Assembly: GCA_024449915.1 (NCBI GenBank)
Contig: JAMZAV010000310.1
Coordinates: 1,178,001 to 1,242,000, forward strand
Direction of reading: 5' to 3'
Length of the DNA: 64,000 nt
Source: Sweltsa coloradensis
Lineage: Eukaryota; Arthropoda; Insecta; Plecoptera; Chloroperlidae
Made by a program: the position numbers and the translations under genes. Below are positions 1 through 57,066 of the stretch, one piece after another; within the stretch, counting starts at the first letter, position 1; the number at the start of each line of letters is the position of its first letter. The notes beneath the pieces were generated by a model, which saw nothing but the letters and a program-made list of their open reading frames with translations, made no database searches and had not been told where the DNA came from.

Positions 1-1783
1 GTAAAATTGATAATAAGTCACATTTTTGCGTTTTAGACCAATTTAAATACTCTAAACTATTTTAAATGGGTAAATGTGGGTATTCACTGGAACGGTCGAT
101 TCGTCTTCTAAATAATCGTACAAAGTTATTGATTTAGAACAAGGATCAAAAGGGTGAAACGTCATGCGGAAGCGTCGCGGCGCGCTCAAAACGGCATGTA
201 GAACAAGGCGGATTCTTTTCGTATACGGTTTATGGTATGTATTTTGAATTAGGCTTTCTAAAAAGTATAATGTCATCTTGTTTCTACCGCCGTAGGGTCA
301 ACTTTCATAACTTGCCGATTGCCGCTGCACGGATGCGAGAAAGCCTTCGCCATTAGAGTAATTTGCACTGGAAAGTTATAAAAATTGTTTCCGTCACAAA
401 TTATAAGTGAACAACAATAATGGAATGAGTAAAAAAAAGTAAAAAAGTTTCCTAGACGGGCTCGAACCGACGTCCTCTCGCATGCAAAACAAGAGCTCTA
501 ACCACTCGGCCAACAATGACCACGGTAAAACGTGCGGTCTAGAGTGATATTATACAGATGCACGATAACTTGCGATAAGCGTAAAACATTTGTCATGACT
601 ATTAGGACACTTTTAATAGTTATAAAACGTTCTGTCGATATTTCTAGAGTGTAATTTACGTCTCTTTTCACAAGATGTACATTATAATTATTTATTTTGT
701 CATTAAAAACTTCGGATGTGGCAGTCAGTCGCATGAAATCATCCAACTCGCCACCAAATAATATCTCGTGGTTTGAAACGTGGCTGGTAATGCGGGTAGC
801 CTAGGACCCAAGTGGGAGAAGACGCAACTGTATTGGCAGAGCTACCGATAGCGGACGATTTAGTTTAGGTAGTCACCGCAAAATTTGAAAGCGCTCGGCC
901 CTGCTTCCGACTCTTAATGTAGAAACCTGATAGGATGTGAATACTGTGGGAGGCGTCGGGTTGGAGAAATCTGAAGGGAATGAGGTTTTGGTGGAGGCGC
1001 CGAGTCGAGATTTACGGAATCCAACTTCTTGGGAAGCCTTTGACATCTCCGAGGCGATGTGATCTTGTACATCCAATGAATATCTAAGTATTTCACATAG
1101 GGAACAGTTTCATTGTGTTCCTTCTCTCAGTATGGTGTGTTATAGTATTGTAAAGATTCTTTGTATAAGCTTCCTGAAATATACATTCAGCTAACCTCTG
1201 GTCAGCCTTGACTTGGGTTTACCATCATCATCATCATCATTATCATAGCCATAATTCATGCTAAAAGCCTAAAAATATACAATTTGTCAAATTTATATTT
1301 TAGTTTAACAATGCTTGTCAGTTAATCAAACTGATGTAGCTTGATTTCAGACTGTTATTTTTTTCAACTGCTTTATTTGATTTCTTCACATTTTAATAGA
1401 TTCTTCTATCACAACATAAACAATTTCACCAATTTAAGCAAGCACACTGTTAAAGTATTGTATGGATTGGGAACAAGCTTTGATGAATACGGTACATACT
1501 TCCTCGGTATATATGGTTATAAAATAATTATTTGTTTTTTGCCCCTTACTTTAAAGTAATATGCATCTTATATTATAAAGTTTCTTAAACTATCTAAAGA
1601 ACTACGTTCACATACTTGCATCCTTCAATTTCCCCTAAAGAAGTTGAATTTATATTTCTTGTACATAACATCTCTACTGTAAACTTAAGGGTGCGTCTAG
1701 GCCAATTATTTTATTTTCAATACCTTGCATTTCAATGTTCAAACCACTAATAGGCTTATACATGACTTCTCTTTGTTTTCCAG
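1..1783. other. Upstream CadN intron sequence, no exon recognised
   Basis: Presumed intron left of the first visible CadN exon. Apart from the tRNA-like element at 441-519 and a short CAT microsatellite near 1222-1240, nothing recognisable. Open frames on the minus strand at 873-1096 have no family resemblance that I can name. Confidence 0.5.
441..519 (-). repeat. tRNA-like element (tRNA-derived SINE head or pseudo-tRNA)
   Basis: Read on the minus strand it has a good A box (TGGCCGAGTGG), a B box (GGTTCGAGCC), an anticodon-like hairpin with loop TTTGCAT, and a T6 Pol III terminator at 446-441. The acceptor ends do not pair and the T stem has a mismatch, so this is not a functional tRNA. The loop resembles tRNA-Ala(TGC). 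Confidence 0.45.
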
Positions 1784-12222: not shown

Positions 12223-15200
12223 AATCCGTAAATTGGACTAAAAATCCGTGTATCCGTTTTGCACCCTCAAAATCCGTTAAAACGGATAAAATCCGTAAAA
12301 ACGGCAACCCTACTCTATTATAATGTTGAAGAAATAAAATTTAGAAAGGTTGTGCTATAACAATTTATGTATGTCTCTCTCTATAAATAGTTTAGATTGG
12401 AGAAGGGTTGACAGGTTGGGAAAGCATAGAGAACATAAAGCCCAGCCTGAAGGGCTGGGGGCGACAAAACTTTTCACCTGCTGATGACAACTGTCGCTAA
12501 TTTAAAGTTGTTACCTTAATCCACGACGCGTTTCGTCCTTACGTACGTTACGTATAAAACTTCTGCAAATTTTATAATAGGCTACTAGCAACTACGTCAC
12601 AAATCGAGGGGAATGAGGGGTATTCTCCGCTTTGAGCCCATCTGATGGACAAGCAACCCTCGTTCTGCAAGTGGACGCGTGCTGAACATTGCACAACTTA
12701 TCACGCTCCAACTTTTACCCTATTCATTATTGGGGAAAAACTTAAGAGGAATAATATTTAGCAAATATATCATTCAATTCTAATAGCGATTATTTTGAAT
12801 TTTTAGACAGACGTTAACATGTTATATCGATGTACGTATTGAAATAACATTTAAGACTTTTACTTGTTTTTTATGAAATTAAATAAAACAACTTCAATTG
12901 ACAGAAACCTAGTGATCGGATTTTGACAAGAACTCTTTCAAAAAATTCATCGGACTGTTTAGACAAGAAATAAATAAACTTTCTAGATAGAAAGTGCACA
13001 GAACGAAAATTTATAACATAGGGTAATATGCATGGTATGTGTTTTCATCTAAAATACGCGCTTTTGACGTGCGGATGAGCTGTGAATAAGATAGATAGAT
13101 AGATAGATTTATTTGCGTAATGAATACTCTTCCCATGTAGACCATGTTCTGAGTGTATTACATGTCATGATATGTCTAGGCTAATACATAAATACCAATA
13201 TATACAAATAATATTAAAAACATTTACAATATGTACAGATCTAGACTAAGTAGCCTAGTAGGATAATACATCAATTATCTCAAATAATATAAAATATTCT
13301 ATTATGGCCATATAGTACTAGTATATTGTATGTACATTCTTTATTTTTTTACACATGTTGTTGTAGAAAGCATACATTGATAACATTTCAAAGTGCTTGG
13401 AGGTAACTATTTACAATTAAATAAGTTGGCTAGGATTAGGTTCAACTGAGGTGAGGGTCTACAATTACTGCACGCTATGCTGTAAAATTTCGTTCAGTGC
13501 TTTTTCTATCGAGAAAGTTAACTTATTTCTTGTCTTATTAGTTGGATGCATATTTAGAGAGAATTCTTGTTGAAATCCGATCAGTAGTTTTTTATCAATT
13601 GAAGTTGAGAAGATGTAACGTTGTTGATAATTTTGTCATTTATAATGCGTAACTTGTTATAACAAACTAACGGTTCTGTTAAAAAATTCGAGATAGTCGC
13701 CATTAGAAGAAATGATATGTTTGCTAAATATTATTTCTCTTAAGTTTTGTCCAAATAATGAATAGGATAAAAGTTAATTGTAGAGCCGTTCACCAGGCAT
13801 CAACTTGCGAAATGAGAATGCTTGTCCATCAGTTCGATTCGCGGCTACTTGCCGGCGAGCTGTGATGTCACATGAGGCTTCCCTATTCACTTTTGTATTT
13901 AATTAAATTTGACAGATGATATTATAATATAACTTACTGGTAATTAATGAATAATGATATAATCATAATCTTATACATGCAATAAAATGAAATGCCACCT
14001 CAATGATGTTGTACATTTGTTCCCAGCTGTGTTTGTCCGAGTGGCTACAACGGGCCTCGCTGCCAACAGACGGCGCGTAGTTTCCGTGGTAACGGCTGGG
14101 CGTGGTACCCCCCACTGGAGATGTGCGACACCTCTCATCTGAGCCTTGAGTTCATCACAAGAAAAGCAGACGGGATGCTGCTCTATAATGGACCAATAGT
14201 GCCCCCAGAGTCAGATGAGTCTATTGTTTCAGGTAGGCTAGACTAAATTTAAGTTGCATGAACTTTTTGTTCTCTTTCATTAATAACAAGGAATTAATTA
14301 ATCTTAATACGTGTTATTGATCCATTGATTTATTATTCAATCGTAACAAATTTAAAGGCAACTGGACTTGATTTTTTTTTTTTTTTTTAAAGAAGTGTCC
14401 AAAGCAGGTTATATATTGTCCAAAATTCAAATTGTTTCAAGTTCCTTTTCACACTGGAATTCACGAAATGTTATGCCAACTTTTAAAATATAAAAAATAC
14501 TTTCAATTAGTATTTTGTATACCTACTGATATTTGGAGACTTCAACAATATTGAAATACTACATATACCGTAGTTTTTCCCATCACTACTAGGGATAACT
14601 TTGGTTAACCGGAAAACAATTCGATCCGGTTTTGAATGCAACTGGTTTCAAATTTTAAAACCGTTAAAAAATATATATATATATAATTGCGAGACATGCA
14701 AGGGAAACTTCCTAGGTTATATGAACGCAAGTGAGCGCCATTTCTCGGCTGCAGGGCTAATACTATTTTCAAAATCGAGATCACCCATCCCAACCAACCA
14801 AGGTCACCCGCTTTCCCGATCATAAATATGCCGATAAAGTAGAGGCAACAAACATCCTCGCCACTCCTAACTAGGGCTGGGCTATGACATTTCATTCAAT
14901 TATCGATATCACACGAAAAATTTTGATATATCAATTGATCGAAATGTAATTGTTTCAAAAAAAATTAAAAAATTATCTAAAAGAGTGAGTCTATTTTTCA
15001 TAATTTGTGGCCAAATAGGGTTGATAAGGTATCACCATAAACTAGGGCTGGGCTATGACAGATCACTCAATTATCGATATCACACAAAAAATTTGATATG
15101 ATATCGATGCAAAATGTAATTGTTTGTAAAAAAAAAAAAAATATTAAAAAATATTTTTTTCAATTTTTTTTAGTGTTTTTTTTCATATTTTGGCCAAATA

Positions 15201-18200
15201 GGGTTGATAAGGTGTCACCATAGACCTATTAATGATCTCACAATCGCGTTTTATGACCCGGCACCTCCAGCAAATGCACCAGCCAGGGTAATTTAATTTA
15301 GACTACCTACCTGGCACCTCCACCAAATTCAATGTACATTTTGTGTAAATTTCATTTTCGAAGAATCAATATCTATCGAATTTTCCAATTATCGATATCA
15401 TATCAAATATCGATTTTTTTGCCACCCTACCATAAACCTATTTAACGATTTTTACAATCTCACAATCCGTTTTATGACCGGCACCTCCACCAAATGCACC
15501 AGCCAGGTTAATTTAATTTAAACTACCTACCCGGCACCTCCACCAAAATTACGAAATTTAGCATTTTTTGTGTTAATTTCGATATGAAATCAAATACCGA
15601 TATCGTATCGAAATATATTTTTTTTACCCAGCTCTACTCCTAACCCACAACAAAAATAAAACTGAACTTTTCATTTTTTTCATTTTTTTTTTTTGAAAAC
15701 CGGTTTTGGTTTTTGGAAATCGGTTAGCGATTTCACTAACCGATGTCATCCCTAATCAATACTACTCTGTAAGTTTATTAACAAAATGTTGCACTATCTT
15801 GGAACATGCGGGTGTCAATGTTTGGTATATTCGTTGTTACAGATTTTGTTTCACTTGAACTGGAAAGAGGAATGCCGAGATTACTGATCGATTTTGGTTC
15901 GGGAACTCTTGAACTTCGAGTAAAAACAAAAAAGAGCCTAGATGATGGTGAATGGCATCGTATCGATGTCTTTTGGGATACGGAGGTAAAGAATGTAAAT
16001 GGATCCAACGTTTATCTATTTGAGCTAAGTTCATCGTGTGGCAACATTGCAATGAATGCTGAATGACATAGTCACACAGGCAATAGCCATACTAGTTATG
16101 AGAAATCTTCACTGATTTAAATAATTTGCTTGACAAAATTAATATGCTTCAGTGAAATTTGGTATGTTATTTTTATGCTTGATAAAAATTGTATCAACTT
16201 GTATTTAGTGTAGTAGTTAATTGAAATCATTTAGGTAAGTAATTAGCTATTCAAATACTTATTGCCAGACCTTGAGCCTTATTGTGTTTACTACCTACTC
16301 AGTGGGACAAATTTAATTCAGTGGTTTGTTTTGGGTTTGTTAGAATGTGCGCCTTGTGGTGGACTATTGCAAATCTGCCGAAGTGGCGGAACTGGAAGAT
16401 GGAACTCCGCCAGAGTTCGATGACTCGAGTTGCCAAGCGCACGGGACAATACCTCCGTTCAACGAGTACCTGAATGTGAACGCCCCACTGCAGATCGGTG
16501 GACTCTACGTCGAACAGTTCGACCCTACTCACTATCACTGGCAGTATATGCCAGTCGGCAAGGGTTTTGACGGTTGCATCAAGAATGTTTTCCACAACAG
16601 CAAGGTGAGCATTGAGCATAGCATCTTTACCATGTTATTTACTTGACTACATTTGCTTCTAATAGTATTTATAATGAGAAGTATATTGGTAATAGATTTC
16701 TCAATAATATTAAGTGTATAAATATAAAATCAAATCGTAAATCCAACTTTTTAGCCACACAGCCTTTAGATAGAAGACCACAATTTGACTTGCAAATTCT
16801 GTATTTAAGGTACATAGAATAGAAATTTTGTTCACCGTTATCCAGTAACAAGACGTGAGTTTTCAACAATTGCAATTATAAAATTAAATATTATAACACA
16901 ATAATATCAGACCCCTATTCCAACATTCGTCGGGTCAGGGGGGTGACAAGTCACCATTTTCTCGGGCTACGGCTTATCAGCGCTTGTTAGCAACATAAAA
17001 TAACACTTATTTAAATTTATTTAAAAGTTATGTAAGGCCCTACTTGGACATATTCAAAATCTTATAATTACTAACGAATGTATGTTGTATGTTGCAGCTG
17101 TATGACCTGGCCCACCCCGGCCTATCGCGCAACAGTGTAGCGGGATGCCCTCAGACAGAGGAAGTGTGCAACACTCAGGAGTCGACCTTCCGCTGCTGGG
17201 AACACGGCATGTGCGTGGGCAGTTTCTCCGAGGCGCGCTGCCAGTGTAAGCCAGGCTGGACGGGTCCCGGATGCATCACACCCACGATCCCCACGACCTT
17301 CAAGCCGCAGAGCTATGTCAAGTACGCTCTCTCCTTCGAGCCCGACCGCTTCTCCACGCAGGTTCAGCTCCGGTTCAGGACGAGGGAGGAGTTTGGGGAG
17401 TTGTTCCGAGTCAGCGACCAACACAACCGAGAGTACGGGATTCTGGAGATCAAGGACAGTCGCCTCCACTTCCGGTACAACCTCAACAGTCTCCGCACGG
17501 AGGAGCGAGATATCTGGCTCAGCGCTATCACTGTTGATGACGGACAGTGGCACACCGCTAGAGTGAGTGTAGACTTTAGTCTTAATATATAATAACATTA
17601 TATTTTCCTGTTTCACTTATGAGCTATGACCAGGAAATCGGTTCACTTCTTTAAAATGTCTCGAATGCCCTCCAAACTCTTCTCTCATTTTAATAAGAAA
17701 TTATTTTGAAAATATGGTAAATTTAAATATTTTCAACAGTTTCTCCAATGTATATTGGTGTGAGATAGGATCCAACAGCTTACCTTCGTAAAGTGATGGT
17801 GGCTGCTGAATTTCTTCTTCATAAGTTATTACTAGTTAGTTACTAGGTAATGAATCATAACCTAGTTTCTCTAATTTATGTTTACTTTTTGTTTAGAAAT
17901 CTAGAAACTAATTACCAGTACCTAATAATTATATCCTGCCTATATGTGCTGTTCACATACGTTTAATAAGGAACGTCAGGCTGCATTTTTTTTTTTTTTA
18001 GTTACTGTGTTATTATTAGCTAATATTCTTGCAACGTTCAATAGATACAACTTATGTCAATGGTATCCATATTGTGTAAGTTAGTAATAGACTTTTTATT
18101 TTTAACAAATTTTGTATATTATGATATGTATGAGAAAGTGGTTTTAGTATTCATTGACTTTCTTTACATTTACTAATTTTAATGTTTGAAATGAACATTT

Positions 18201-21200
18201 TTAAACCAAATTGTATCATGGTTTGTATTACTCAGGTTTCTCGTCACGGCTCAGCAGCAACTCTGGAGCTTGATGGTGGTGAAGGCCGAAGGTACAACGA
18301 AACCTTCACATTTGAAGGTCACCAATGGCTTCTAGTCGACAAGCAAGAGGGCGTGTATGCTGGCGGCAAAGCTGAGTACACCGGTGTACGGACTTTTGAA
18401 GTTTATGCTGATTACCAAAAAGGTAAGACACACACATACAAATGCCTTTGGATTGCAGAACCCTGATGGGGAAACAATTGCTATGCTAAAAAGCTTATCA
18501 AGCTATCCTTCAGAGGTAACTAACTTTCTCTGATTGTGTTGTGTGTGTAGGTTGCCTCGACGATATCAGGCTAGAGGGGAAACATCTTCCTTTGCCCCCT
18601 GCCATGAATGGAACTCAGTGGGGTCAAGCCACAATGGCGCGCAACTTGGAAAGAAACTGTCCATCTAATAAGCCATGTGCTAATGTCATCTGTCCTGATC
18701 CATTTGAATGTGTGGATCTATGGAACGAATATGAGTGCACGTAAGAATTAATTTTCTAGAATTTCGCCTTTTGATTTTGCCAGGTTTATGGAAAATACTA
18801 AAACTTACAATAGGTACTCACTACTCAATATAAAAATCTGTATCAAACTTAACTTACGATAGGTCACTACCCAATATAAAAATCTGTATCAAACTTTACA
18901 AATCAAATTAGTTTTTTTTAATTTTTTTCTAAGACTATTGATTTGCTATTACAGAAGCAAGAAACTTGAATGATTTTCAATAATATTATTTACAAGTATC
19001 GATATCTTTAAAAAATCATTTCAACAATCCCTAGTTATTAAAATTTAAAGACTGATGTATTGATCCAAATCTAGTACAGCTTAAAAGAGAATTTATTTTC
19101 CTCAGCCCATACCAGTACCAAGAACATAGTTGTGTTGCAGTTCAGTCTGTGTGCCTTGTTTATTTCTGAATCTCAACCCCATACATTTGTTAGGTACAAA
19201 TCTTTCAAATAATAATTTATTGGTGCAGCTCTAGTAGTTGTGACTGCATTATTGTCAAGATTCGATCAACATAATATGAAAACGATACATAAAAAAACCA
19301 GAACTGGAATGCATTAGTCTTCAAATATCATCCAATTTAGGTTGTGGACCAATAATTCTTTGAAAACGTCCTTCATTTGGATCAATACTTTCATTGTAGT
19401 ATCCTACTATCAATGATTCTTGTATTATATGAATTTTTAATTTTTAATGAATTTTGACAGTCATTTGATTGAAATTTCAACACATAGGGCCTAATCTGAG
19501 CTTTGCTTTCTAGGGTGTATTTCTGTTTTCAAAAAGTTTACATTTGCCTTCATGTGTCTTTTTTGTCATCTATTATCTATGCCTCTTTCTTTACTCTATT
19601 TTAACCGCATTTAATGTATATTTGATTAATTCGTAACATATAGTACATAATTAATTAACATGAATGGGATTGACAGAAGCTATGTAGATATCTTGCACTT
19701 GAATTTCACACAATACTAAAACTCCTTCCGTTTCTCTCGTGTGTACTAATGTGTGTTGTGGTTTTCCTCTTGTTGCCTCTCTATCTAATGCTATAATGCA
19801 GCTGTGGTGAGGGTCGCGTCATGTCTCCGGACACTAAAGACTGTACGGACAAGAACGAGTGTTTGGACAGCCCTTGTCTGAACGGGGGCACCTGCATCAA
19901 CCAGGACCCTCGTCTTCGGTACCGTTGCGCCTGCCCTGAAGGCTTTTGGGGGGAGAACTGTGAGCTCGTGCAAGAGGGACAGACACTCAAGCTGAGCATG
20001 GGAGCACTAGCTGCTATCCTTGTCTGTCTCCTCATCATCCTTAGTAAGTTATGGTTTAGACAAAGTAGACATTCTAGAAAGAAGGCAGTGACGGGCAGGT
20101 GGCGCAACGTGGTGAAACTGATTCCCGCCAAGCAAGGTGGTGGGCATTATATTTACTGTTCACAGCTGGTTGCTTTTGTTCACCATCTGTGTTCAAGGTA
20201 GGGTTAGTAGTGGTAGTAGTACATTGTAGATAAAACTGCTGTAGCACATTGTTGTGAATGGGTGCAAAATATTATTTTATAGTTGTGTAGCTCTTGTTGT
20301 AATGTAATACAAATATCACCCAAGCCAGAAGAATTGGATAGTTTGGGTATGAGAGTCCCAGTTATAGGAGCAAACTTGTCTAAAATGGTTGCTCGTTCAC
20401 AAGACGCCCACCTTAAAACACTTCACATAATCGAGAATTGCACAGTAATTTATATTTATTACTACATGTAACTGCATTTGCAAATGGCAATATTTCAGTA
20501 GTGCAATAAAATACATACATGATCATGATTTCTGCTTTGGGTGATACTTTGTTAGCTTCATTTTTATCTGTATAAACATGCACTGTGCAATTTTATTTTG
20601 CATGTTTAGTGTGATATGCCTGCCAGCAAATGCATGGTAATTAATTAGTAATAATTTCATAATTTGCCTGTATTAAATTCCAATTTCCATTCACTTGAGT
20701 ACTTTGCTCTCCATTAAAATATAAAGATAATTTTTGAATGATCACCTACTCACTATAATAAAAAGCATAACTGGTTAGTTTCACACAATAAAGGTAAAAA
20801 CATTAAACTTGAAATGCCAAAATGAATCTAATTACTTGACAACATAGTTAAAAAGGGCAATTTTGTTTTATTTTAACTTAGGATATCGGTTAGCAAAATC
20901 GCTAACCGGTTTCCCGATACCAAAATCGTCTTAAAACCGGTTTTTAACAAAGATTAAATTGTTGTGGGTGAGAGATAAAAGCCAATTTAATTGAATTGAT
21001 ATGTAAAAGTAGGGCTGGGCAAAAAAATCAATATTTCGATACGATATCAATAAGTGGGAATATTAGATATTTGGATAGATAAATAACTAAATTTACACAC
21101 AAAAATGCTGTTTCGTAATTTTGGTGGAGGTGCCGGGTAGTCAAAATTAAATTAATCCTGGCTGGTACAATGGTGGAGGTGCCGGGTCATAAAACGCGAT

Positions 21201-30195: not shown

Positions 30196-30229
30196 ACAAC
30201 TTGATTGTAGCATTGTTACATCATCATCC

Positions 30230-30460
30230 ATTGATGCTTCCTGATTCTGGCAGGGTCAACTTGGGTTTCTACATTAATTTTTGTTTACTTCTTTCTATCC
30301 CCCCAACATCTTATCTCTTCCACATCTTCCCAGCTCTCTGATCTTGCCTGTAGGTCTCCTGCTATCGCCCTTTAAATCTCTTCCTTGGCATCTCCCTTAC
30401 TATTCCTTCCATTCTGTTTTCATACATTCTCTCAGGCACACTCTCCCGGCATGTGTTTGA
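30230..30460 (-). mobile_element. LINE 3' end remnant just after CadN
   Basis: The minus strand shows diverged matches to the 47012-47260 LINE tail: MPRKRF-like, GRPRK-type and SWEDVEE-type segments with frame breaks, then CCCAAGTTGACCCTGCC and a GATGATGATG end. Confidence 0.55.
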
Positions 30461-36984: not shown

Positions 36985-37250
36985 TACCTACATGCGCGTA
37001 CGTGGTTCAATCCGCCAGTCATATCTCTCTCAAACGTGTTCTTTCGCCAGGGCTAGGCTACGTGCGCGTACGTGGTTCAATCCCCCAGTCATAAAACAAG
37101 TCTCGCGAACGTCTGTTTCTCCAGGGCTAGGCTACATGCACGTATGAGGTTCAATCCACCAGTCATAAAGACGTCTCTGGGACGTCTGCTTTTCCAGGAC
37201 TAGGCTACGTGCGTGTGTAAGGTTCAATCCCCCAGTCATAAAACTATCCG
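36985..37250 (+). repeat. Tandem repeat, about 72-bp units, four copies
   Basis: GGTTCAATCC recurs at 37004, 37074, 37148 and 37221 (spacing 70, 74 and 73), each preceded by ACGTGCGCGTACGT-like and followed by CCAGTCATA, with TTCTCCAGGGCTAGGCTAC between units. A degenerate partial unit lies at about 37348. The repeated motif resembles a Pol III B box. Confidence 0.8.
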
Positions 37251-45128: not shown

Positions 45129-48100
45129 CTGAAAAAAAAAACATGATTTACATTTGACACTTTATGCCATCTACTTACTACTACTACTCAAAAAACACTT
45201 GAGAGATGCCACTGGACGGGACGACGGCTAACATCAATGGAAATAAACACTGCGTTAAGTTGTAAACTACGATGATAACACGGCGGAATATCGATTTATC
45301 ACGATCGGTACGGTATGCTATCGTATCGACATACGATTATTGTTCGCACTACTAGAAAAAGCAGTTGACTGAGGTATGTAATTTTAGCTTATAAAACGTG
45401 TTTTAGATCTTTTAAAAGCTGCAAATTCACAAAAATGCCACCTATGGCGATAACAGATCTTGACGTAACCAAAAAGAAAAATTGCGATATTAAATTATTT
45501 AACAATAAGCATGTGCAAATCCTACCTTGATACACACAATTCAAGTGTACGTGTCACATTTGCGACAATGAGGGCATGCACCCTATTGTTTTGCTTTTAT
45601 TGCCCAAAAGCTGATGGAATTAGTTTGTAATTCAAAAATTTAACTAAGGCCTACTTTGCGCAAAGTAGACCTTAGTTAAAGGGGGGAAAGAGAGACTTAT
45701 CTCTACTGGTTTACTCAATTACATTCAATTAATATGATACTAAGACTTTCATGTGGCCGTGGGGAGCGTGCCAATTAGAAACCCATCATGAAAGGGGAAA
45801 AACAGCCGTCTAAATGTATGTAAATTTGTGCATATTTACATACAGACGGCGGTGCTCGCCCATCCACAGCCACTTAAATCGTCAGATTAGCCAACTAGTT
45901 GAAGTAATGTGGCAGGGAAATGATTTTCCCCTTTCATGATGGCTTCAAATCGGCACGCTAGTGCTCGGGGTGAAGGATAGGAGACTGATCGTCTAGCGCA
46001 GCGCATAGCAAAGCTTATTTATGTCATTGGGTTTACTAAATCTAGTTGATGGCATCATAGGCCAAATGTGGGCATTTAAGAAGAAGCAGAAGAAGAAGAC
46101 TTCATTTAATAACTTTGCTAAAGAATTGCTCAGATTGCTCATCAATCATAAGAAACCCCAGCAAAAGAAAGAGTTAAAGAAAGAGTTTGGTAGGAATGAT
46201 GAGTCATCATTCCTACGAAACTCCATCAAAATAAATAGTTAAATAAATAGTTGATTAGTTAATTACCCTTAAATCTGTTTTGTTTTCGTTTGTGGTTCGT
46301 TGTTTCGTTTGTACCAGGTTTATTTGTGAAAGGTGACACGGATCGTAGAATAGTCATGATTATAAATAAATCCTTAAATGTAAGTGATGCCCTCTACAAC
46401 TTACCTCCCCTCATCATCCCTGGAGGTGGTCCCCTCATTCCAGGTGGACCCATTGGACCTCCACGACCCATTGCCATACCTGGTGGCATTCCTGGTTGAA
46501 AAAACATAAAACTTTACTTAAACAGACAGAAGAAACACATCTTACACACATGAAGAATAATATTAATAGCCTATAATGATTAGGCCAATGTAAGGTCAGG
46601 AACCTCTGGCTTTGGAGCGGCATGCAACTCTTGTTTGGGTCTTGTGTGGCTTCATATTTTTGTAAGGAAATCTATCAAGAAATCTGAAGCCAACCAATGT
46701 TTGAAATATTGTGCTAAGTAGGCCTAAGTACTTTTATCAGCTGTAAATTTTAAATTCACCAAATTAGGTAAGTTTAACATTATTTGATCATCAATTTTTA
46801 TGTAGTATTTGAATTTTTTAATGTGGTTTCAAGAGGTTTTCTGTAGCCTAGGCATAGAAAGAACTAAGAACAAGACACTTTGTGTCTGGGGCCTCATGGC
46901 CTTTTTCTAACTTTCTATGGAGTTGTTCATCATAATTTTATGTCATATTTGTACCAAGCCTTCTAAAATAAATAATTATTATTATAAATAATAAATTGAT
47001 AAAATAATAAAATGTATGAAAGAAGGATTAAAGAAGGAAGAAGAAGACGGGGTAGACCAAGGAAGAGATGGAAGGACATCATAGCAGGAGACTTGGAGGC
47101 AAGAGGAGAAAGCTGGGAAGATGTGGAAGAGATACGATTGTGGGAGGATAGAAAGAAGTGGAAAAATTGTGTTGCTAACTAAACCCAAGCTCACCCTGCC
47201 ACAAGCAGGAAATGGCGATGGATAATGATGATGATAATAAATAATAATATTAATTAGTTTGGAAAAGGCCAAATGGCTAGTTTAGTTTAGATTGGAGAAG
47301 GGTTGACAGGTTGGGAAAGCATAGAGAACAAAACATAAAGCCCAGCCTGAAGGGCTGGGGGCGACAAAACTTTTCACCTGCTGATGACAACTGTAGCTAA
47401 TTTAAAGTTGTTACCTTAATCCACGACGCGTTTCGTCCTTCTGGGACTCTTCAGGCGGATGGTGGCCACTAAAAATCAGCTTACTACATGCAACCAAAAC
47501 TCACAACACATAACCAAACCTGTGGTAGGGCCACGCAAGAAGTAAATTCTGCAAGCATGTTGTCATCATCAGCAAGGTTACTTCACACACCATTCATACT
47601 GGGGCACACAGTCAGCACAGACAGTAAGGGGGCTTCCCTCCCAACTCTGGTGCTCGGGAGACAAGAAATCCATGACTTACCCTGGATTCGAACCAGGACC
47701 CTTGGCAACAAGAGAAAAGCTGCCCCTCCTGCTGTTGCTGGGCAAGGGTGCCTCTTCATTCATACAAAGAGAAAAGGTTAGAGATAGGAAGGGTGGAAAG
47801 TCACAACACAGCACAACCAGTGAGGGGCTTCCCTCCTAGACTCTGGTGCTTGGGCGACAAAAGAACCATGTCTTACCCTGGATTTGAACCAAGACCCGTG
47901 GCAACGAGAGAGGCTGCCCTACTAATACTAAAAAACTAACTACTAACTAACTTCAACCTCTTCATCTGCAGCCAAGAGCTAATATAGCACGTGTACCTGT
48001 GCTATAGCCAAGAGCTTGCAATTTGTAGTCTTGTTTCCTTTCGTTTTCGAATCCCAGTCACAATTAGTAGGGCAGCCTCTCTCGTTGCCACGGGTCTTGG

Positions 48101-51100
48101 TTCAAATCCAGGGTAAGACATGGTTCTTTTGTCGCCCAAGCACCAGAGTCTAGGAGGGAAGCCCCCTCACTGGTTGTGCTGTGTTGTGACTTTCCACCCT
48201 TCCTATCTCTAACCTTTTCTCTTTGTATGAATGAAGAGGCACCCTTGCCCAGCAACAGCAGGAGGGGCAGCTTTTCTCTTGTTGCCAAGGGTCCTGGTTC
48301 GAATCCAGGGTAAGTCATGGATTTCTTGTCTCCCGAGCACCAGAGTTGGGAGGGAAGCCCCCTTACTGTCTGTGCTGACTGTGTGCCCCAGTATGAATGG
48401 TGTGTGAAGTAACCTTGCTGATGATGACAACATGCTTGCAGAATTTACTTCTTGCGTGGCCCTACCACAGGTTTGGTTATGTGTTGTGAGTTTTGGTTGC
48501 ATGTAGTAAGCTGATTTTTAGTGGCCACCATCCGCCTGAAGAGTCCCAGAAGGACGAAACGCGTCGTGGATTAAGGTAACAACTTTAAATTAGCTACAGT
48601 TGTCATCAGAAGGTGAAAAGTTTTGTCGCCCCCAGCCCTTCAGGCTGGCTTTATGTTTTGTTCTCTATGCTTTCCCAACCTGTCAACCCTTCTCCAATCT
48701 AAACTAAATAATAATATTAATAAGAGTAGATCAACATATTGGCTACACCAAATTACTGTCAAAAACATAGTTTACAAAATAGTTTCAAATGAACCTTTCA
48801 CTCAATTTACATTTTAGGCCTATATAGAGAAGAAATGCCTACCCATCATTCCCGGTGGAGGTCCCATCATGCCTGGCGGTGGCCCACCAACTTGCATTGA
48901 CATAGGCCCACCAACTGGCATTCCCCTGGGTGGCCCCTGTTGCTGTGGCCTCATTTGAGGGGGAGCGGATACCTGGGGGCCCCCTCGCCCTCCAGGAGTC
49001 ATCACCTGTTGCGATGGTCCGCCCACACCTCGGACTGGTCCCTGGAGACCTAGACAAACAAATATGTACTGTAGTAAAATCTTAAATAAGGGATTGTACA
49101 GTTAGTCTTGGAACAAGTAACCTTGGAGCAGAATTCTTTATACAGTCTGCAGAAATAATAGTCTATGCCTAGGCATAGTACAAAACGGTAGATTAGCTAG
49201 GAGGTAGCTTAAAAGTTACAAAATGTTTTCCAAGTCTAGTTTGCTGTTGATCGTGGCTCCTTGTTGTGCTCCAATTTCAAGTTACAGGTGGACAACATAA
49301 TTCAGTCCATACAAGAAGGGATGACCTATCTATCGCTTTGAGCCAGCATTATTATGAAATGAGAACTTTTGTAAACTGACTGTGCTGACTGCTGACTGTG
49401 TGCCCCAGTATGAATGGTGTGTGAAGTAACCTTGCTGATGATGACAACATGCTTGCAGAATTTACTTCTTGCGTGGCCCTACCACAGGTTTGGTTATGTG
49501 TTGTGAGTTTTGGTTGCATGTAGTTAGCTGATTTTTAGTGGCCACCATCCGCCTGAAGAGTCCCAGAAGGACGAAACGCGTCGTGGATTAAGGTAACAAC
49601 TTTAAATTAGCTACAGTTGTCATCAGCAGGTGAAAAGTTTTGTCGCCCCCACCCTTCAGGCTGGGCTTTATGTTCTCTATGCTTTCCACAACCTGTCAAC
49701 CCTTCTCCAATCTAAACTAAACTAGCCATTTGGCCTTTTCCAAACTAATTGAACAACCAAGTCATTTGGACACCTATCACTTTCCATCTTTCTTCACCTA
49801 TGGGGTCGAGATGGGCGAGCCTACTCTACACCCTCTGGTGGTCCGTGTTTCCTTGTTCATAACAAGTGTGACTCCTTGTCCTGCTGGGAGGTCCTAGCAG
49901 GTGATGAACCTGTTAGACCCTACTCGTCTTTTCCTTCAACCTCTTCATCTGCAGCCAAGAGCTAATATAGCACGTGTACCTGTGCTATAGCCAAGAGCTT
50001 GCAATTTGTAGTCTTTTTTCCTTTCGTTTTCGAATCCCAGTCACAATTAGTAGGGCAGCCTCTCTCGTTGCCACGGGTCTTGGTTCAAATCCAGGGTAAG
50101 ACATGGTTCTTTTGTCGCCCAAGCACCAGAGTCTAGGAGGGAAGCCCCCTCACTGGTTGTGCTGTGTTGTGACTTTCCACCCTTCCTATCTCTAACCTTT
50201 TCTCTTTGTATGAATGAAGAGGCACCCTTGCCCAGCAACAGCAGGAGGGGCAGCTTTTCTCTTGTTGCCAAGGGTCCTGGTTCGAATCCAGGGTAAGTCA
50301 TGGATTTCTTGTCTCCCGAGCACCAGAGTTGGGAGGGAAGCCCCCTTACTGTCTGTGCTGACTGTGTGCCCCAGTATGAATGGTGTGTGAAGTATTTCGT
50401 TGTGTATGGACTTGCGTTAAAATCCGGGACACATGTACTTTCGTTGTGTATGGACTTGCGTAGGCTACCCAGGGTCTGGGGCGAAGCCCCAGCTGCCGGA
50501 GGCGAAATTTTTTTGGGCCTTTTTTTCCCCCAAGATCGCCTGTAGTGAGATCTGAGAGTGTCGGGACAATTTTTAAATGATCTAAAATGTCTGAACGTCC
50601 ACCATGCTCTATCCCGAACACACCACGGCACACAGAACAATCAATTTTTCCTTCGATTTGCGTATTTCTAGACAAGAACGGATATTCGTCTTTCAGTTTG
50701 TCTGAAAAACGACACTTGCGTTTGGCAATTGTATTTTGCCACACACGCACACCACTGGCACAGTCTGTAAGCTAAGCAATGTCACAAGTCACAACGCGAA
50801 CTCAACACTCACTGATTACACAACGGTGACTGCAGACTGTGCAGTGAATCATTGACAACGACTGGACTAGCCTACTAGTGGGTTGACACTGTACGTACTG
50901 TCGCCGCCCGCTGCCCTGGCCTTGAGCTCGACTCAATGACAACATTATTGGTTACATTGCGCGTCCCGGCCCAGCCGCCGTCGGTGCCGCGAAATATTTG
51001 AAAGCAGAAATTTGCTACGACAATTTGGAATTGGATTTTCGATTTCCGGGACAATTTGGCGTCCCGAAAATGTTTTTCGGGACACCGGGACAGCAACAAG

Positions 51101-53580
51101 AAAAACGGGACTGTCCCGGAAAATCCGGGACGTATGGTAACCCTAGTGAAGTAACCTTGCTGATGATGACAACATGCTTGCAGAATTTACTTCTTGCGTG
51201 ACCCTACCACAGGTTTGGTTATGTGTTGTGAGTTTTGGTTGCATGTAGTTAGCTGATTTTTAGTGGCCACCATCCGCCTGAAGAGTCCCAGAAGGACGAA
51301 ACGCGTTGTGGATTAAGGTAACAACTTTAAATTAGCTACAGTTGTCATCAGCAGGTGAAAAGTTTTGTCACCCCCAGCCCTTCAGGCTGGGCTTTATGTT
51401 CTCTATGCTTTCCCAACCTGTCAACCCTTCTCCAATCTAAACTAAACTAGCCATTTGGCCTTTTCCAAACTAATTAATTCGCTATTAAATTAATTGTTAA
51501 TTAGTAAGATACGCTACGGTTCTCTAGATGCTGATGCAGTTCAATTCATGCTTTGGTCTAAGGTTTGTTAACCTATGAACTAAACATCTTGATATAATAT
51601 TGGTAGAGTACTAATTCTTTATGCAAATTACGTAACTTGCAAGCCTTTTTGCAGCAAAACCACAAATTGTACCTTACTAATTGTAATATGCGTGCCCGAA
51701 TTCAGCTGCAAAATTAGCTAGGTAAATGAAGCGTTCCTATTTCAATCGGCTAGATTAGCCTCTAGCACAGTGTTCCAGTGATCAGCTGCTGAGCCAACAA
51801 TAGGCTATTTGCATGAATTTTAGATTTAGGCTAAGTTAAACATATTTATCTCTAGAGAATAAAACGCCCTGAACCCAAATATCGCGTATATTTTATGTTA
51901 AAAAAATGTTTTGACATAGATATTGTGACTTGAAGCGTAGTATTTTAGAACATACTGTGAAACCGGCTGTCATTGGTCATTCCATTATGACATATTTAGG
52001 CACTACATGGGCGATGATGCGTGGCCCAGAGCTTGTCAAAACAGTGCTACCGCAGCCTGTTGTATTGTTGCCGAGAGATAATCCAAAGCACTTGGCATTC
52101 TGAAGATATTATTTTTGCGTTATACTGCACAGTATTTGGAAGGCCGTGGCTAATATAGGGCCTCATTACGTCACACTTTTGGCGCGGAATTTAAACGTCG
52201 TTTTTGAAACATTTTTAATTATTTTTTATAAAATAGGCCCTACATCAAATGCTTCAAATTTTGTTTTGAAACTGTATATAAATATAATATGTAGAATCAT
52301 ATGAGCAACTCGAAAAAAATATAAAAAAATCTCATGCAAATAGCCTATTCTAGCCAAGATTAGGACCGCTTACCAGCTAGAAACCACGTGAAATTGCAGC
52401 CACTTTAAATGTTGTGTTGTATATGAATCACAAAAGACGTTTTTCTGCTGAACATGGAAAAGAGATGTGGGAATTCAGATATGCTACTAATTGAACAATG
52501 CATATACTTGCATTCCAGAACTTGAGCAGAGAGAATTCAAGTTGACACAACAGTAACTTACGTAGTTTGCTTTGTAGGATTAATATTTTATTGAAATGTA
52601 CGATATTTGAGATATTTTCTATAATTTTTAAGTTTCCCAGACTAAAATAAAATATTGGTTGCTCATACCTGCATTGTTAGTTGCCCTGGGTATAGCAATT
52701 TTTGAGCCCAGATAGAATGTGGGAACAGAGATTTTAAGTGTCTCAATGAAGCTAATTAGTAGGTACTGTAATTACATTCACAATGTCAATAGCACAGCAC
52801 AACACACAACAATGCCGATCACAGACAATTCCCTGTGGCTACTGGCTACCCTTAGTTGCGTATGCTATGTAAGTGGCAGCTCCCCAGATGAAGGGAGCGA
52901 ACCCAAGTCTTACCAAAGAATCTGGCATGTGCAAGTTATTATTCCATCGTACTACAAATTCTGCCTTTTATGTTTTACACTTTTTATTCCAAGCAAACTA
53001 ATTTAATTTGTTGACTTGGAGAGGTTTCTGTGTGATTGCGTAGTACTTCCCAGTCCCCTATACCTATCAAGAACAAACCTGTTCCTCGAGGTGTAGCTCT
53101 GAAAGCTTTACTTAGTTGCTTGCGAGGTTTGCCCGACTCACCTCGCATTAGATGGGGTTGCGATGGGAGATTTTGAAGTGGATACCAGTGCGGACACTTT
53201 TGGTCGATTCCGTGTGACACTGTGTCACGTTGCCATTTGTTCCATATGATTGGAATTTTGCTTCGTAGGCCTAATTAGCATGGAACCAGAGCCAGTGTGC
53301 TACGTACCTGCTGGGATTCCACCTGCTCCTGCTGGCACGCCTCTGCCGGCCGCGCGGCCCATCCCTGGTCCAGGATTTGTTCCGGGAACAGGGACACGGG
53401 GAAGACCCTCTTCTGGAGGTGGGGGACCCTCCACTGTAAGTGACACAATGTTCTCGCCACGTAACAACAAGAAGCCGAGAACTCGTTTCTCTTCACGTTC
53501 CGGTGCCTTCGTGTTCTTGGGCTTTATTTTACGGAACTCTTCGCAATCTCCTAATATGAGATTCATGTGCTTATCAAAAG
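45109..53580 (-). CDS. SmB: Small nuclear ribonucleoprotein-associated protein B (SmB), 5' exon missing
   Basis: Core Sm-ring protein of the spliceosomal U1, U2, U4 and U5 snRNPs; acts in the nucleus after cytoplasmic Sm-ring assembly. Four minus-strand exons join in frame: 53580-53308, 49049-48843, 46491-46405 and 45128-45109, giving 194 residues. Visible features: [10 protein letters not shown] and EEFRKIKP (end of the Sm1 region), the Sm2 motif ([20 protein letters not shown]), then a Pro/Gly/Met-rich tail with [13 protein letters not shown] and repeated PPPGMMG, ending GPPRPY-stop. SmB tails bind WW/GYF proteins and carry arginine methylation in other species. Roughly 35 N-terminal residues (start and most of Sm1) are encoded further upstream and were not found. 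The introns are full of hammerhead-bearing repeats. Confidence 0.95.
45639..45680. repeat. 42-nt near-perfect palindrome in SmB intron
   Basis: TTTAACTAAGG, then CCTACTTTGC, mirrored by GCAAAGTAG, ACCTTAGTTAAA. It would form a hairpin or cruciform. Confidence 0.8.
45767..45959. mobile_element. MITE of about 190 bp with nested palindrome
   Basis: Outer arms share CCATCATGAAAGGGGAAAA (19 bp perfect) within about 36 bp of imperfect inverted repeat. The inside carries AGCCGTCTAAATGTATGTAAA / TTTACATACAGACGGCGG, related to the CACCGCCGTC element at 58793. Confidence 0.6.
46183..46223. repeat. 20-bp-arm palindrome in SmB intron
   Basis: GAGTTTGGTAGGAATGATGA and TCATCATTCCTACGAAACTC around a single G; one mismatch. 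Confidence 0.8.
46405..46491 (-). CDS. SmB: SmB exon: Pro/Gly/Met-rich tail part 2
   Basis: Acceptor tcaaccag, donor gtaagt. 87 bases: [20 protein letters not shown], then PPPGMMRG. Confidence 0.94.
47012..47240 (+). mobile_element. LINE ORF2 C-terminal remnant with 3' tail
   Basis: Plus-strand frame of 56 codons (47012-47182, stop TAA) reads [20 protein letters not shown], then [19 protein letters not shown], the standard end of RTE/Jockey-type LINE proteins; then a short 3' UTR and a GATGATGATAATAA tail. 5'-truncated. Confidence 0.75.
47252..47926 (-). mobile_element. Hammerhead-bearing tRNA-like repeat, copy 1
   Basis: Orientation given by the ribozyme. Reading on the minus strand: tRNA-like segment with GGTTCAAATCC, second tRNA-like segment with GGTTCGAATCC, then the hammerhead and a 3' end with CAGCCCTTCAGGCTGGGC and CCAATCTAAACTAAAC. 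Lies in the SmB intron between the two Pro/Gly/Met exons, sense to SmB, and forms an inverted repeat with copy 2. Confidence 0.85.
47419..47460 (-). ncRNA. Hammerhead ribozyme motif, copy 1 (sense in SmB intron)
   Basis: Minus strand: stem I ATCCGC/GTGGAT, core CTGAAGA, stem II GTCC-CAGAA-GGAC, GAAA, palindromic stem III CGCG, cleavage triplet GTC. All conserved core bases are present. Predicted cut between 47425 and 47424. Confidence 0.8.
47949..48707 (+). mobile_element. Hammerhead-bearing tRNA-like repeat, copy 2
   Basis: Starts CTTCAACCTCTTCATCTGC as copy 4 does; from 48063 it mirrors copy 1 almost perfectly. T-arm-like CCTGG-TTCGAAT-CCAGG at 48293-48309 and a related CTTGG-TTCAAAT-CCAGG at 48096-48112. 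Antisense to SmB. Confidence 0.85.
48530..48571 (+). ncRNA. Hammerhead ribozyme motif, copy 2
   Basis: Same 42 bases as copy 1, on the plus strand: CTGAAGA at 48536-48542, GAAA at 48556-48559, cleavage after GTC ending at 48565. The very short palindromic stem III (ACGCGT with flanks) is the dimer-acting minimal type. Confidence 0.8.
48843..49049 (-). CDS. SmB: SmB exon: Pro/Gly/Met-rich tail part 1
   Basis: Acceptor tgtctag, donor gtaggc on the minus strand. [20 protein letters not shown] is diagnostic for SmB/N; then [13 protein letters not shown] and [14 protein letters not shown]. Phases match both neighbours. Confidence 0.96.
49379..49745 (+). mobile_element. Hammerhead-bearing repeat, copy 3 (5'-truncated)
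   Basis: Retains the 3' half: hammerhead at 49547-49588, inverted CCTTCAGGCTGGGC, and the end CCAATCTAAACTAAAC followed by TAGCCATTTGGCC. The tRNA-like part is missing. Confidence 0.85.
49547..49588 (+). ncRNA. Hammerhead ribozyme motif, copy 3
   Basis: Identical 42-base motif; predicted cleavage after 49582. Confidence 0.8.
50395..51145 (-). mobile_element. hAT element, internally deleted, with BED-finger remnant
   Basis: Perfect 8-bp duplication GTGAAGTA (50387-50394 and 51146-51153). Right end, inverted: TAGGGTTACCATACGTCCCG, then a CCGGGAC-rich subterminus typical of hAT. A minus-strand frame (about 50750-50560) reads [17 protein letters not shown] and [18 protein letters not shown], the N-terminal BED-type zinc finger of hAT transposases. 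The left end carries a 45-bp internal duplication (TTTCGTTGTGTATGGACTTG twice). Confidence 0.8.
51272..51313 (+). ncRNA. Hammerhead ribozyme motif, copy 4 (GTC to GTT variant)
   Basis: As the others, but the cleavage triplet is GTT, still within the NUH rule though expected to be slower. Predicted cleavage after 51307. Confidence 0.75.
51474..53000. other. SmB intron, nothing recognised
   Basis: AT-rich intron sequence; several isolated splice-like motifs but no supported exon. Confidence 0.45.
53010..53235 (-). promoter_or_regulatory. GC-rich intronic segment beside the SmB Sm2 exon, possible poison exon
   Basis: On the minus strand, 70-170 bases past the SmB donor, a GC-rich block contains a possible acceptor (gtgacacag) and a strong donor GCGAG|gtgagt. 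Vertebrate SNRPB autoregulates through a stop-containing exon in the corresponding intron. This match is by position only and is speculative. Confidence 0.25.
53308..53580 (-). CDS. SmB: SmB exon: Sm2 motif
   Basis: Minus-strand acceptor gttcacag, donor gtacgt. Begins with two bases completing alanine of the FKAFDKHMN motif and ends with one base of glycine. 90 whole codons. Confidence 0.96.
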
Positions 53581-55491: not shown

Positions 55492-57066
55492 ATGACCTCC
55501 AAACCCGCCACCCAGATTTCAGAGCAGCCCACCATGAGCGAGCTGACTTGCTTGCCCGCTGACATAAAAAAGCTTCTCCGGGGGACCAAGGCTAATACCG
55601 CAGCGGGTCCAGACGGCGTTCCTGCAATCCTGCTAAAAACTCCCTGGAACGCTCTCCGCGACTCACTTGCCCACCTCTTCAACATCGCCCTTGAACAGGG
55701 CATTCCACGGAATGGAAAACGGCGTCTGTGGCACCGATCTACAAAGACGGCGACAAGAGAGACATAAAGAACTACCGTCCAATCAGCATCACCTCACTGG
55801 TCGGTAAGACGATGGAACGTTTTGTGAGAGACCGGACGAGCGAGTTCCTCGAGAGCCAAAACGTCATCCCTGCGGCGCAGCACGGCTTTCGACAGCGCCG
55901 TTCTTGCACCACTCTCCTAGCCGGCGCCATTGATGCATGGACGGCAGCGCTGGACGAGCATAGCGGAGCTCACATTCACTGTGTCTTTCTCGATTGGTCT
56001 AAAGCGTTCGATAAAGTGCCGCACGTGCGTCTACTATCCAAGCTCGAGCATTATGGCATTAAGGGCAATTTGCTTAGGTGGTTCGAGAGTTTCCTTGTCG
56101 GCCGCACGCAGTTCGTCCAGTTCAACGGCGAGCGCTCGGAATTCCGGGACGTGCCCTCGGGCGTCATCCAGGGAAGTGTGCTTGGCCCCCTGCTGTTTAA
56201 CGTCTTCGTAGCCGACCTCCCTACCCTCGGCAAGGATCTAAATGCTCCAGTACGCTGACGACGTCACCCTGTACTGCATCGTGGTCACCCAAGAGGATGC
56301 AGACGCCCTTCAAGCAGACCTAGACGACATTCAGATTTGGTGCGACAACAATGGCATGTCGCTCAACGCCCTCAAGTGCAAGATGATGGACATCACGCGC
56401 CGCGCGCACCCCACTATACTTCCTGTACACCATAGATGGTGTCCCACTCGAGTACGTCGACAAGCAGCGCCTCCTCGGAATGCACATCACAAGCGACCTC
56501 CGATGGAACGTTCACACCGATATTGTGCGGGCCAAGGCGGCGCAGGTGCTGGGTTTCGCGGCCCGCAATCTGAACGGGTGCACGCCGCGCATCAAGAGGA
56601 TGGCCTACCTGTCGTTAGTTAACCCACCATGACTTTCGGCCTCCCCGCATGGCACCCAACCACCATTGAGAACACTACCAAGCTTGAGAGGGTGCAGAGA
56701 AGGGCATTGCATTTCATACATGGCCGTAACATCCCCCCACCCTGTGACCAGAAGCAGGTTATGCCAATGACCATGCACCTGCAATACACCGATCTGGTGT
56801 TTTTTAAAAGATGCCTCAGTGGCGCCACTGATTTTGACGTGTGCGCGCGCATCAACCAGGGCCGCGTGTTGAGAGGCGACGATATTAGGCACCCCCGCCT
56901 CCAACCCCCTCCGGCTAAAGGAGTGCTCGGCCGACGTGCTTTTTCTTTTCGGGTTGTTAACCCATGGAACGACCTGCCGCCCGCCCTCAAAGACTGCCCA
57001 GTAAGTCATTTCCCTTCCATGTGTAAGGAGTACTTATGGGAGAACCAACTACAAGTGCCATGTTAG
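55492..57066 (+). pseudogene. Jockey/CR1-type LINE reverse transcriptase, 5'-truncated and frameshifted
   Basis: Pieces in three frames follow the LINE reverse transcriptase order: AAGPDGVPAILLK, IYKDGDKRDIKNYRPISITS, AAQHGFRQRRSCTTLLAGAI, HCVFLDWSKAFDKVPHVRLL, GVIQGSVLGPLLF, the catalytic YADD at 56251-56262, then DKQRLLGMHITSDLRWNVHT and a C-terminal part ending at TAG. Frame breaks near 55712, 56237, 56410 and 56622. GC-rich compared with the surroundings, suggesting a fairly recent insertion. No endonuclease part; not active. Confidence 0.88.

Follow-up and report, generated by a model that had tools for sequence, protein, structure and literature searches.

A 965-bp hammerhead-ribozyme repeat of Sweltsa coloradensis whose insertions resemble those of Penelope-like elements

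We analysed a 64,000-nucleotide stretch of the Sweltsa coloradensis genome (contig JAMZAV010000310.1, positions 1,178,001 to 1,242,000; hereafter the window) that contains several copies of a repeat with a hammerhead ribozyme, and followed this repeat through the rest of the assembly. We consider it probable that the repeat is a 965-bp non-autonomous retroelement, retrozyme-like in its workings and Penelope-like in its insertion. The insertions display the footprint of Penelope-like elements (PLEs): two 3′ end sites, a 30–40 bp tail, inverted copies with target-site duplication, and partial tandems (pseudo-long terminal repeats, or pseudo-LTRs). The initial annotation had proposed a non-autonomous retrozyme or a short interspersed element (SINE) with a tRNA-like promoter; a ribozyme-bearing, retrozyme-like element survives from that proposal in modified form, and the SINE does not.

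The unit, as read from copy C2220, is 965 bp long and repeated head to tail, and the tandem junctions from position 965 to position 1 are exact in many loci. On the C2220 map the ribozyme core starts at 769 with the predicted cut after 798, and two box-B-like strings are located at 333 and 530. The GC content is 48.4%. We detected no long sense open reading frame (ORF) in the circularised unit, where the longest stop-free stretch is 80 codons in the sense and 150 in the antisense direction, and the unit lacks the ORF with reverse transcriptase and GIY-YIG endonuclease that defines an autonomous PLE.

Genome searches covered the species' own assembly (1.449 Gb, 16,871 contigs), and a small, best-scoring share of the candidates was scored. 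A 644-bp query taken from the full unit gave 43 matches, all of those listed 99–100% identical (best 40 scored of 1,835 candidates), and a 226-bp query from the 3′ end gave 42, of which 40 were 99–100% identical and two were at 98% and 84% (best 40 of 2,676). In total, 83 of the 85 listed matches were 99–100% identical, and this near-identity of the best-scored copies suggests recent activity of the family. We mapped 47 insertions: a first set of 30 (27 genome loci from the 644-bp query and three in the window) and a second set of 17 from the 226-bp query, which reached the tail site. The second set comprises seven new loci from the search output and 10 picked by hand from the list; seven further contigs of the 644-bp list and 11 further places of the 226-bp list fall outside the sample. 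Arm counts exclude six pieces of less than 96% identity or shorter than 100 bp (C8636, 271 bp; C2220, 46 bp; C11571, 43 bp; C7134, 180 and 288 bp; C869, 172 bp).

A covariance search with the type I hammerhead model RF00163 placed four window sites above the gathering score of 34 bits (42.2, 42.2, 42.2 and 38.3 bits), which confirms the annotated complete type I hammerhead. The aligned copy features CUGA-A-GA, a 4-bp stem II, GAAA, a tiny palindromic stem III (CG/CG) and a 6-bp stem I. The core and stems II and I are thus as first described, except that the cleavage triplet of the copy at 51272 is GTT, not GTC. Across the genome, RF00163 gave 70 matches, 69 of them over the cut-off, in the best 74 scored of 174,555 first-look candidates, a first look so noisy that this total is no estimate of copy number. 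Eight distinct ribozyme versions compared by eye varied at the free base of CUGANGA, within loop II and in stem III or the cleavage triplet; changes in stem I were one-sided, and no double (compensatory) change was seen. In one family member (locus L008, 1501–1545; 46.7 bits) the ribozyme could accommodate a hairpin in stem III (ACG-TGG-CGT) in place of the palindromic CGCG. Six IMG/VR contigs (L001–L006) match the hammerhead pattern CTGANGAGTCN6GGACGAAACGCG; blastn of the unit against these six contigs gave no match.

Insertion ends, inverted copies and target duplications

The 3′ ends of the insertions are confined to two places. Two sites account for 65 of the 72 arm ends: 39 arms are tailless and end at unit positions 933–940, and 26 are tailed and end 1–10 bases past 965. 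Because the last bases at arm ends may match the target by chance, we give the distance between the sites as some 30–40 nt, which agrees with the length published for the optional tail of PLEs. The 5′ ends are scattered across the unit.

Inverted pairs account for 23 of the 47 insertions, and in all 23 the arms are joined head to head with their 3′ ends outward. Seventeen of these pairs combine one tailed with one tailless outer end and none has two tails; the remainder are tailless at both ends (two, both in TA repeats), tailless with an odd end (three) or tailed with an odd end (one). Since the second-set query reached the tail site and so favours tails, the first set is also given alone: its 13 inverted insertions comprise nine mixed pairs, two tailless pairs, two with an odd end and no double tails. 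At the inner junctions the arms overlap by at most 8 nt or lie up to 62 nt apart; the widest gap, in C2220, is mostly made of unit sequence. The pair of junction positions is different in all 23 insertions. In 21 pairs the two arms start at least 39 nt apart on the unit, and such differing inner 5′ break points are as expected for two separate cDNAs; in the other two (C11571, 736/733; C6169, 894/911) no more than 20 nt separate the break points.

Target duplication distinguishes inverted from single-orientation insertions. Outside microsatellites, a common flank word of 11–19 bp was found in 16 of 18 inverted pairs (15 with the inner candidate end of C869) versus one of 12 single-orientation insertions, all lengths being upper bounds as a word may extend into the terminal bases of the element. 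In the first set outside TA repeats, the longest common word was 14–17 bp in nine of 10 inverted insertions and 4–10 bp in the seven single-orientation ones, none of which reached 11 bp; the longest word among 272 mismatched flank pairs was 9 bp. The second set, counted without C822 and C20, which lie in tetranucleotide repeats, gave words of 11–19 bp in seven of eight inverted and one of five single-orientation insertions, and 210 mismatched pairs gave at most 8 bp. Insertions flagged as lying in or beside TA repeats numbered 13 of 30 in the first set and two of 17 in the second. Two-ended extension goes with duplication, and one-ended extension mostly goes without it.

Several observations sit poorly with PLE-type insertion. 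Seven of the 72 arms end at neither site, including C310tan (644, the edge of a foreign insert) and C3564 (581, an internal junction). C1225 has no duplication and that of C11571 is imperfect by eye, and at C869 the word is 13 bp at the outer and 7 bp at the inner candidate right end, an ambiguity that arises because the right flank is repeated in the assembly. The single-orientation insertion C69 has a 12-bp flank word, and C718, also of single orientation and set aside as TA-rich, has a 16-bp word that is not pure repeat. Inverted arms were present in none of eight loci selected by their ribozyme (L007–L014, 3-kb stretches), perhaps because palindromes are lost. The insertions were chosen by similarity, and C408 and C20 because opposite strands were already visible; this selection, the tail-reaching query and the result at L007–L014 mean that the inverted fraction cannot be taken as unbiased. 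At C869 (L073 plus L086) the right side carries a repeat of about 1 kb made of the element's 3′ end and flank, possibly a retained haplotype duplicate.

Template, priming and mobilising enzyme

Variants within the units indicate how each insertion may have been templated. For 64 variants we counted 229 pairs of units with a variant in common, and 107 of these pairs fell within the same insertion, where 5.3 were expected and no more than 15 were obtained in 1000 shuffles drawn among the units covering each variant site. Of these 107 pairs, 49 were on opposite arms (2.6 expected, maximum 10). The corresponding rates of 9.5% within and 0.15% between insertions are biased by the limit to variants found in at most two insertions, and we prefer the shuffle test. 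In 12 of 39 multi-segment insertions, variants known from at most two of the 47 insertions recur in two or more units, and in C480, C20, C822, C6169, C4581 and the window pair rare variants occur on both arms. C20 has 528T in all six units and 463A in all five units covering that position, and C822 has 519T and 682C in all four. The most informative insertion is C480, flanked by a common 15-bp word. Its plus arm reads A (528T), B (869A and 136+G), A, B with 742C throughout, and its minus arm includes a full unit of type B; 136+G is also found in other insertions. A cluster of five A>G changes spanning 46 nt (unit 807–852) is present in both tandem units of C1169 (L030) and in none of the 46 other insertions, possibly through RNA editing of the template or from an older source. 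Without C1169, private substitutions show no A>G excess (12 A>G, 14 T>C).

Taken as sequence evidence, these patterns would most simply be explained by one repeatedly copied template per insertion, a circular RNA being its simplest form, and C480 by a dimeric circle copied for more than one round and on both strands. The unit-length or circular RNA anticipated in the initial annotation is favoured to this extent, as tandem units and variants common to them point to a multimeric or circular template. We propose that transcripts of tandem units carry the minimal type I hammerhead and that a monomeric or dimeric RNA, most simply a circle formed by self-cleavage and ligation, would serve as template. 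A PLE reverse transcriptase/GIY-YIG endonuclease acting in trans would take up this RNA and cut the target with a stagger, often in AT-rich DNA. Judging from the observed end positions, reverse transcription would start inside the RNA at one of two sites, which lie roughly 137 and 170 nt beyond the ribozyme cut in the 3′ direction. Extension of one DNA end would give a direct, 5′-truncated tandem, usually without a recognisable target duplication. Extension of both ends on the same template would give two cDNAs joined at their scattered 5′ ends, and the product would be the observed head-to-head mirror, tailed at one end, tailless at the other and accompanied by a target duplication. As a whole, this scheme of rolling-circle copying of one ribozyme-made circle (sometimes an A-B dimer) by a Penelope-like enzyme from both break ends, each with its own start site, is a tentative proposal for which we see slightly less than an even chance. 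If it is true, a PLE is the mover of a retrozyme, and tandems, mirror copies and the one-sided tail follow from one mechanism.

The principal challenge comes from a template that is never cut. Uncut read-through transcripts of genomic arrays could be the PLE template, with no circle and with the ribozyme as a passenger or acting later, and we regard this as possible but somewhat doubtful. Such linear multimeric transcripts would also yield tandem and A-B-A-B products. Hammerhead mutants of PAc, a PLE of Anolis, still insert in vitro, where unprocessed RNA is considered the principal substrate (PMC11167929); the ribozyme may therefore be dispensable for the insertion step. Moreover, 70 of the 72 arms read through the predicted cut site and none has its 5′ end at the cut (794–804; about 0.8 expected by chance), and with no enrichment of 5′ ends there cleavage has left no direct mark in the insertions. 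Variants private to one insertion and covered there at least twice number 283, and 258 of them occur in a single unit only. Overall, units are no closer to their partners in an insertion than to units elsewhere, as median differences per kb are 10.8 between tandem units, 8.1 between inverted units and 8.8 between insertions. We tentatively ascribe these unit-specific differences to later mutation together with assembly errors; many of the differences in C4581, C20, C765 and C869 are small indels that may be assembly errors. The shuffle test and the divergence within insertions pull in opposite directions. Against an uncut array transcript stands the sharing of variants within insertions, which far exceeds chance. 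C480, with A-B-A-B on one arm and type B on the other, would require an identically arranged source array, and the A>G cluster that the two C1169 units have in common is consistent with a single RNA having been copied two times, an older source also being possible.

Mirror insertions might instead form by snap-back, the inverted arm being copied from the first cDNA through hairpin priming. Hairpin priming on an antisense template has been proposed for rotifer PLEs (PMC3846280), and the close inner break points of C11571 and C6169 would suit it. The distance between arm starts in the other 21 pairs does not, and copying from arm to arm would not yield outer ends at two different start sites, as 17 of 23 pairs have; we consider snap-back improbable.

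Very improbable, in our view, is a SINE whose ribozyme is transcribed by RNA polymerase III (Pol III) from the tRNA-like boxes, with a long interspersed element (LINE) mobilising the product. The SMalpha repeats of Schistosoma have Pol III promotion. They are known SINE-like elements with a hammerhead (PMC8490949), and the window repeat does have two T-arm/box-B-like strings 197 bp apart, with a second pair at 50082–50092 and 50279–50289. The tRNA-like dimer of the initial annotation stands as far as strings and spacing are concerned and is unsupported as to tRNA identity. ARAGORN reported no tRNA gene in the window, and a permissive cmscan of 47900–48720 (821 bases) with RF00005 gave no match at E ≤ 10. 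The C2220 unit contains nine T4/T5 runs (180, 278, 361, 449, 506, 724, 748, 854 and 952), of which those at 361, 449 and 506 follow the first box and those at 724 and 748 the second; because these runs lie between the boxes and the ribozyme at 769, Pol III would be expected to halt before reaching it. The printed flanks share no common A-rich 3′ tail. The repeat has neither the tRNA-related head of a tRNA-derived SINE nor a sequence free of internal Pol III terminators, and we dropped the Pol III reading. Nor is a pair of fixed 3′ end sites combined with mirror insertions known of LINE or SINE ends. LINE twin priming was ruled out, as both outer ends lie at the same start region and not at a random internal site. 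Elsewhere in the window (36988–37242), 3.5 tandem copies of a 73-bp unit contain GAGGTTCAATCCCC, a string resembling a tRNA T-arm, at a tRNA-like period.

Least probable of all is an inverted DNA transposon or an assembly fold-back, which the mirror ends and the 99.5% identity of the window arms might suggest, since the inner junction position pairs differ in all 23 insertions, the ends are mostly unequal by a tail and artefacts would not make the flank words found in 16 of 18 pairs.

As for the enzyme that Penelope-type insertion calls for, the insertion footprint is what points to it, and no partner was found among the GIY-YIG loci examined. The GIY-YIG family has 28 matches in the assembly (best 150 scored of 1048 candidates), and blastn of the unit against 12 of these loci showed no similarity. 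Six of the 12 (L053, L054, L057, L058, L059 and L061) have a hammerhead-like CTGA.GA...GAAACG motif in the 3-kb stretch, which we count as motif matches only; cmscan with RF00163 at E ≤ 0.5 reported none in the 12 loci. In L053, L054 and L061 two such motifs point outward, in the form CTGAAGATGGA..GAAACGTC with small variants, and the motif holds an ATG, comparable to PAc, in which the ORF starts at stem II (PMC11167929). In L058, a tRNA match (RF00005, 34 bits; 625–698, minus strand) lies within 1.5 kb of the GIY-YIG fragment.

Copies in the window and neighbouring features

The window holds an inverted pair, a tandem insertion and a short fifth copy (Table 1). The pair at 47252–48708 is flanked on both sides by the 17-bp word TAAATAATAATATTAAT, whose last bases overlap the element's end, so that the real duplication is at most 17 bp long. 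In the window's self-comparison, 47281–47926 and 48063–48708 are 99.5% identical. The head-to-tail tandem at 49376–51475 consists of a truncated unit followed by a full 965-bp unit that is split by a 751-bp insert, with the 8-bp repeat GTGAAGTA on either side (50387–50394 and 51146–51153). An 8-bp flanking repeat has the length typical of hAT elements. The left part of the insert has the string TTTCGTTGTGTATGGACTTGCGT twice, and no matching inverted ends were found in it by eye.

Table 1. Positions of the repeat copies, their ribozymes and associated sequences in the window.
Feature	Position	Strand	Evidence
Fifth copy, 5′-truncated, 153 bp (unit 783–935), 3′ end tailless	12388..12540	-	blastn and sequence
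Left target-site duplication TAAATAATAATATTAAT of inverted insertion	47238..47254	.	sequence
Left arm of inverted insertion; outer 3′ end with 29-bp tail string at 47252–47280	47252..47926	-	blastn
Type I hammerhead, left arm	47419..47460	-	RF00163, 42.2 bits
24-nt filler at inner junction between arms	47927..47950	.	
Right arm of inverted insertion; outer 3′ end tailless	47951..48708	+	blastn
T-arm/box-B-like string GGTTCAAATCC, tRNA unsupported	48099..48109	+	sequence
Second T-arm/box-B-like string GGTTCGAATCC, tRNA unsupported	48296..48306	+	sequence
Type I hammerhead, right arm	48530..48571	+	RF00163, 42.2 bits
Right target-site duplication TAAATAATAATATTAAT	48705..48721	.	sequence
Tandem insertion, 5′-truncated unit (unit about 595–965)	49376..49750	+	blastn
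Type I hammerhead, truncated tandem unit	49547..49588	+	RF00163, 42.2 bits
Tail string; exact copies at 47252–47280 (-) and 51447–51475	49722..49750	+	3 matches, 0 in 100 shuffles
Full 965-bp unit, part one (unit 1–644)	49751..50394	+	listed genome matches 99–100% identical
Foreign 751-bp insert splitting the full unit, not element sequence	50395..51145	.	8-bp flanking repeat GTGAAGTA
Full unit, part two (unit 637–965), 3′ end tailed	51146..51475	+	blastn
Type I hammerhead, GTT in place of GTC	51272..51313	+	RF00163, 38.3 bits

Directly 5′ of the mirror insertion lies a LINE-tail-like stretch with a trinucleotide-rich end (47057–47230), which has a 78% relative at 30219–30388. Further away, exons with laminin G and EGF domains (17089–20201) probably belong to an arthropod N-cadherin, the relatives named among the matches listed for the exon being from Idotea baltica and Timema podura, and two ORFs in different frames with reverse transcriptase matches (PF00078) at 55728–56622 appear to be a LINE-like element.

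Comparison with known systems

PLEs of the Penelope/Poseidon type offer the closest parallel for the insertions. The purified PAc protein cuts and extends both strands and prefers AT-rich DNA with ATT, two adjacent internal start sites of reverse transcription account for its 30–40 bp tail, and PAc has tandem copies and a hammerhead (PMC11167929). Inverted PLE copies in the rotifer A. vaga come with duplications of 8–10 bp, and one of the two ends bears a 31-bp tail; some inverted copies and a non-inverted partial tandem have no duplication, and movement in trans is described for unrelated DNA located between PLE repeats (PMC3846280). The 965-bp element resembles PAc and the A. vaga Pen elements in its tandem and head-to-head copies, its optional 30–40 bp tail on one end, its target duplications and its AT-rich targets. 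The likeness in the hammerhead is to PAc; the word is absent from the A. vaga paper (PMC3846280). Unlike PLEs, the unit has no reverse transcriptase/endonuclease ORF, and its DNA resembles none of the 12 PLE-type loci compared with it. It also differs from PAc in its ends: of the 19 inverted pairs in which both ends are standard, 17 are tailed at one and tailless at the other, whereas the start sites of PAc in vitro did not differ between strands (PMC11167929).

Metazoan non-LTR retrozymes resemble the unit in being non-coding tandems with a type I hammerhead, a GC content below 50%, duplications of more than 4 bp and a presumed circular RNA (PMC7229834, PMC7761336). Their monomers measure about 150–450 bp, mostly given as about 170–400 bp, and have a canonical hammerhead, although circles of 150 to over 1000 nt are allowed for in discussion (PMC7229834, PMC7761336), whereas the unit here is 965 bp long, and the palindromic CG/CG stem III of its ribozyme is PLE-like and unlike those of metazoan retrozymes. 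For animal retrozymes PLEs are the favoured candidate movers, with no terminal motif reported that would name the partner (PMC7761336, PMC7229834), and a 2024 review proposes retrozymes as reduced PLEs (PMC11722881). These metazoan retrozyme papers leave the mover open; the insertion ends of the 965-bp element point to a mobilising machinery.

Other ribozyme repeats are further removed. SMalpha, described as SINE-like, is likewise a repeat with a type I hammerhead, but W36.2/SMalpha is 335 bp long (PMC8490949), and in our unit the T runs make Pol III read-through of the ribozyme unlikely. Plant LTR retrozymes are also non-coding ribozyme elements spread by circular RNA, and differ in having LTRs, a primer-binding site, a polypurine tract, type III hammerheads and 4-bp duplications (PMC4918200, PMC7761336).

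We read the family as joining two known things: it has its ribozyme and its non-coding tandem organisation in common with retrozymes, and its insertion footprint with PLEs. The top-ranked literature, in which most subscription papers were not covered, contained no report of PLE tails or mirror insertions in an ORF-less ribozyme element. Because its many near-identical copies bear a terminal signature, the family makes the question of the mobiliser testable, and the scars that it leaves suggest how ribozyme elements may move. The insertions also form a natural data set on how PLE-type integration resolves both DNA ends, one that supports priming from both ends, each with a start site of its own.

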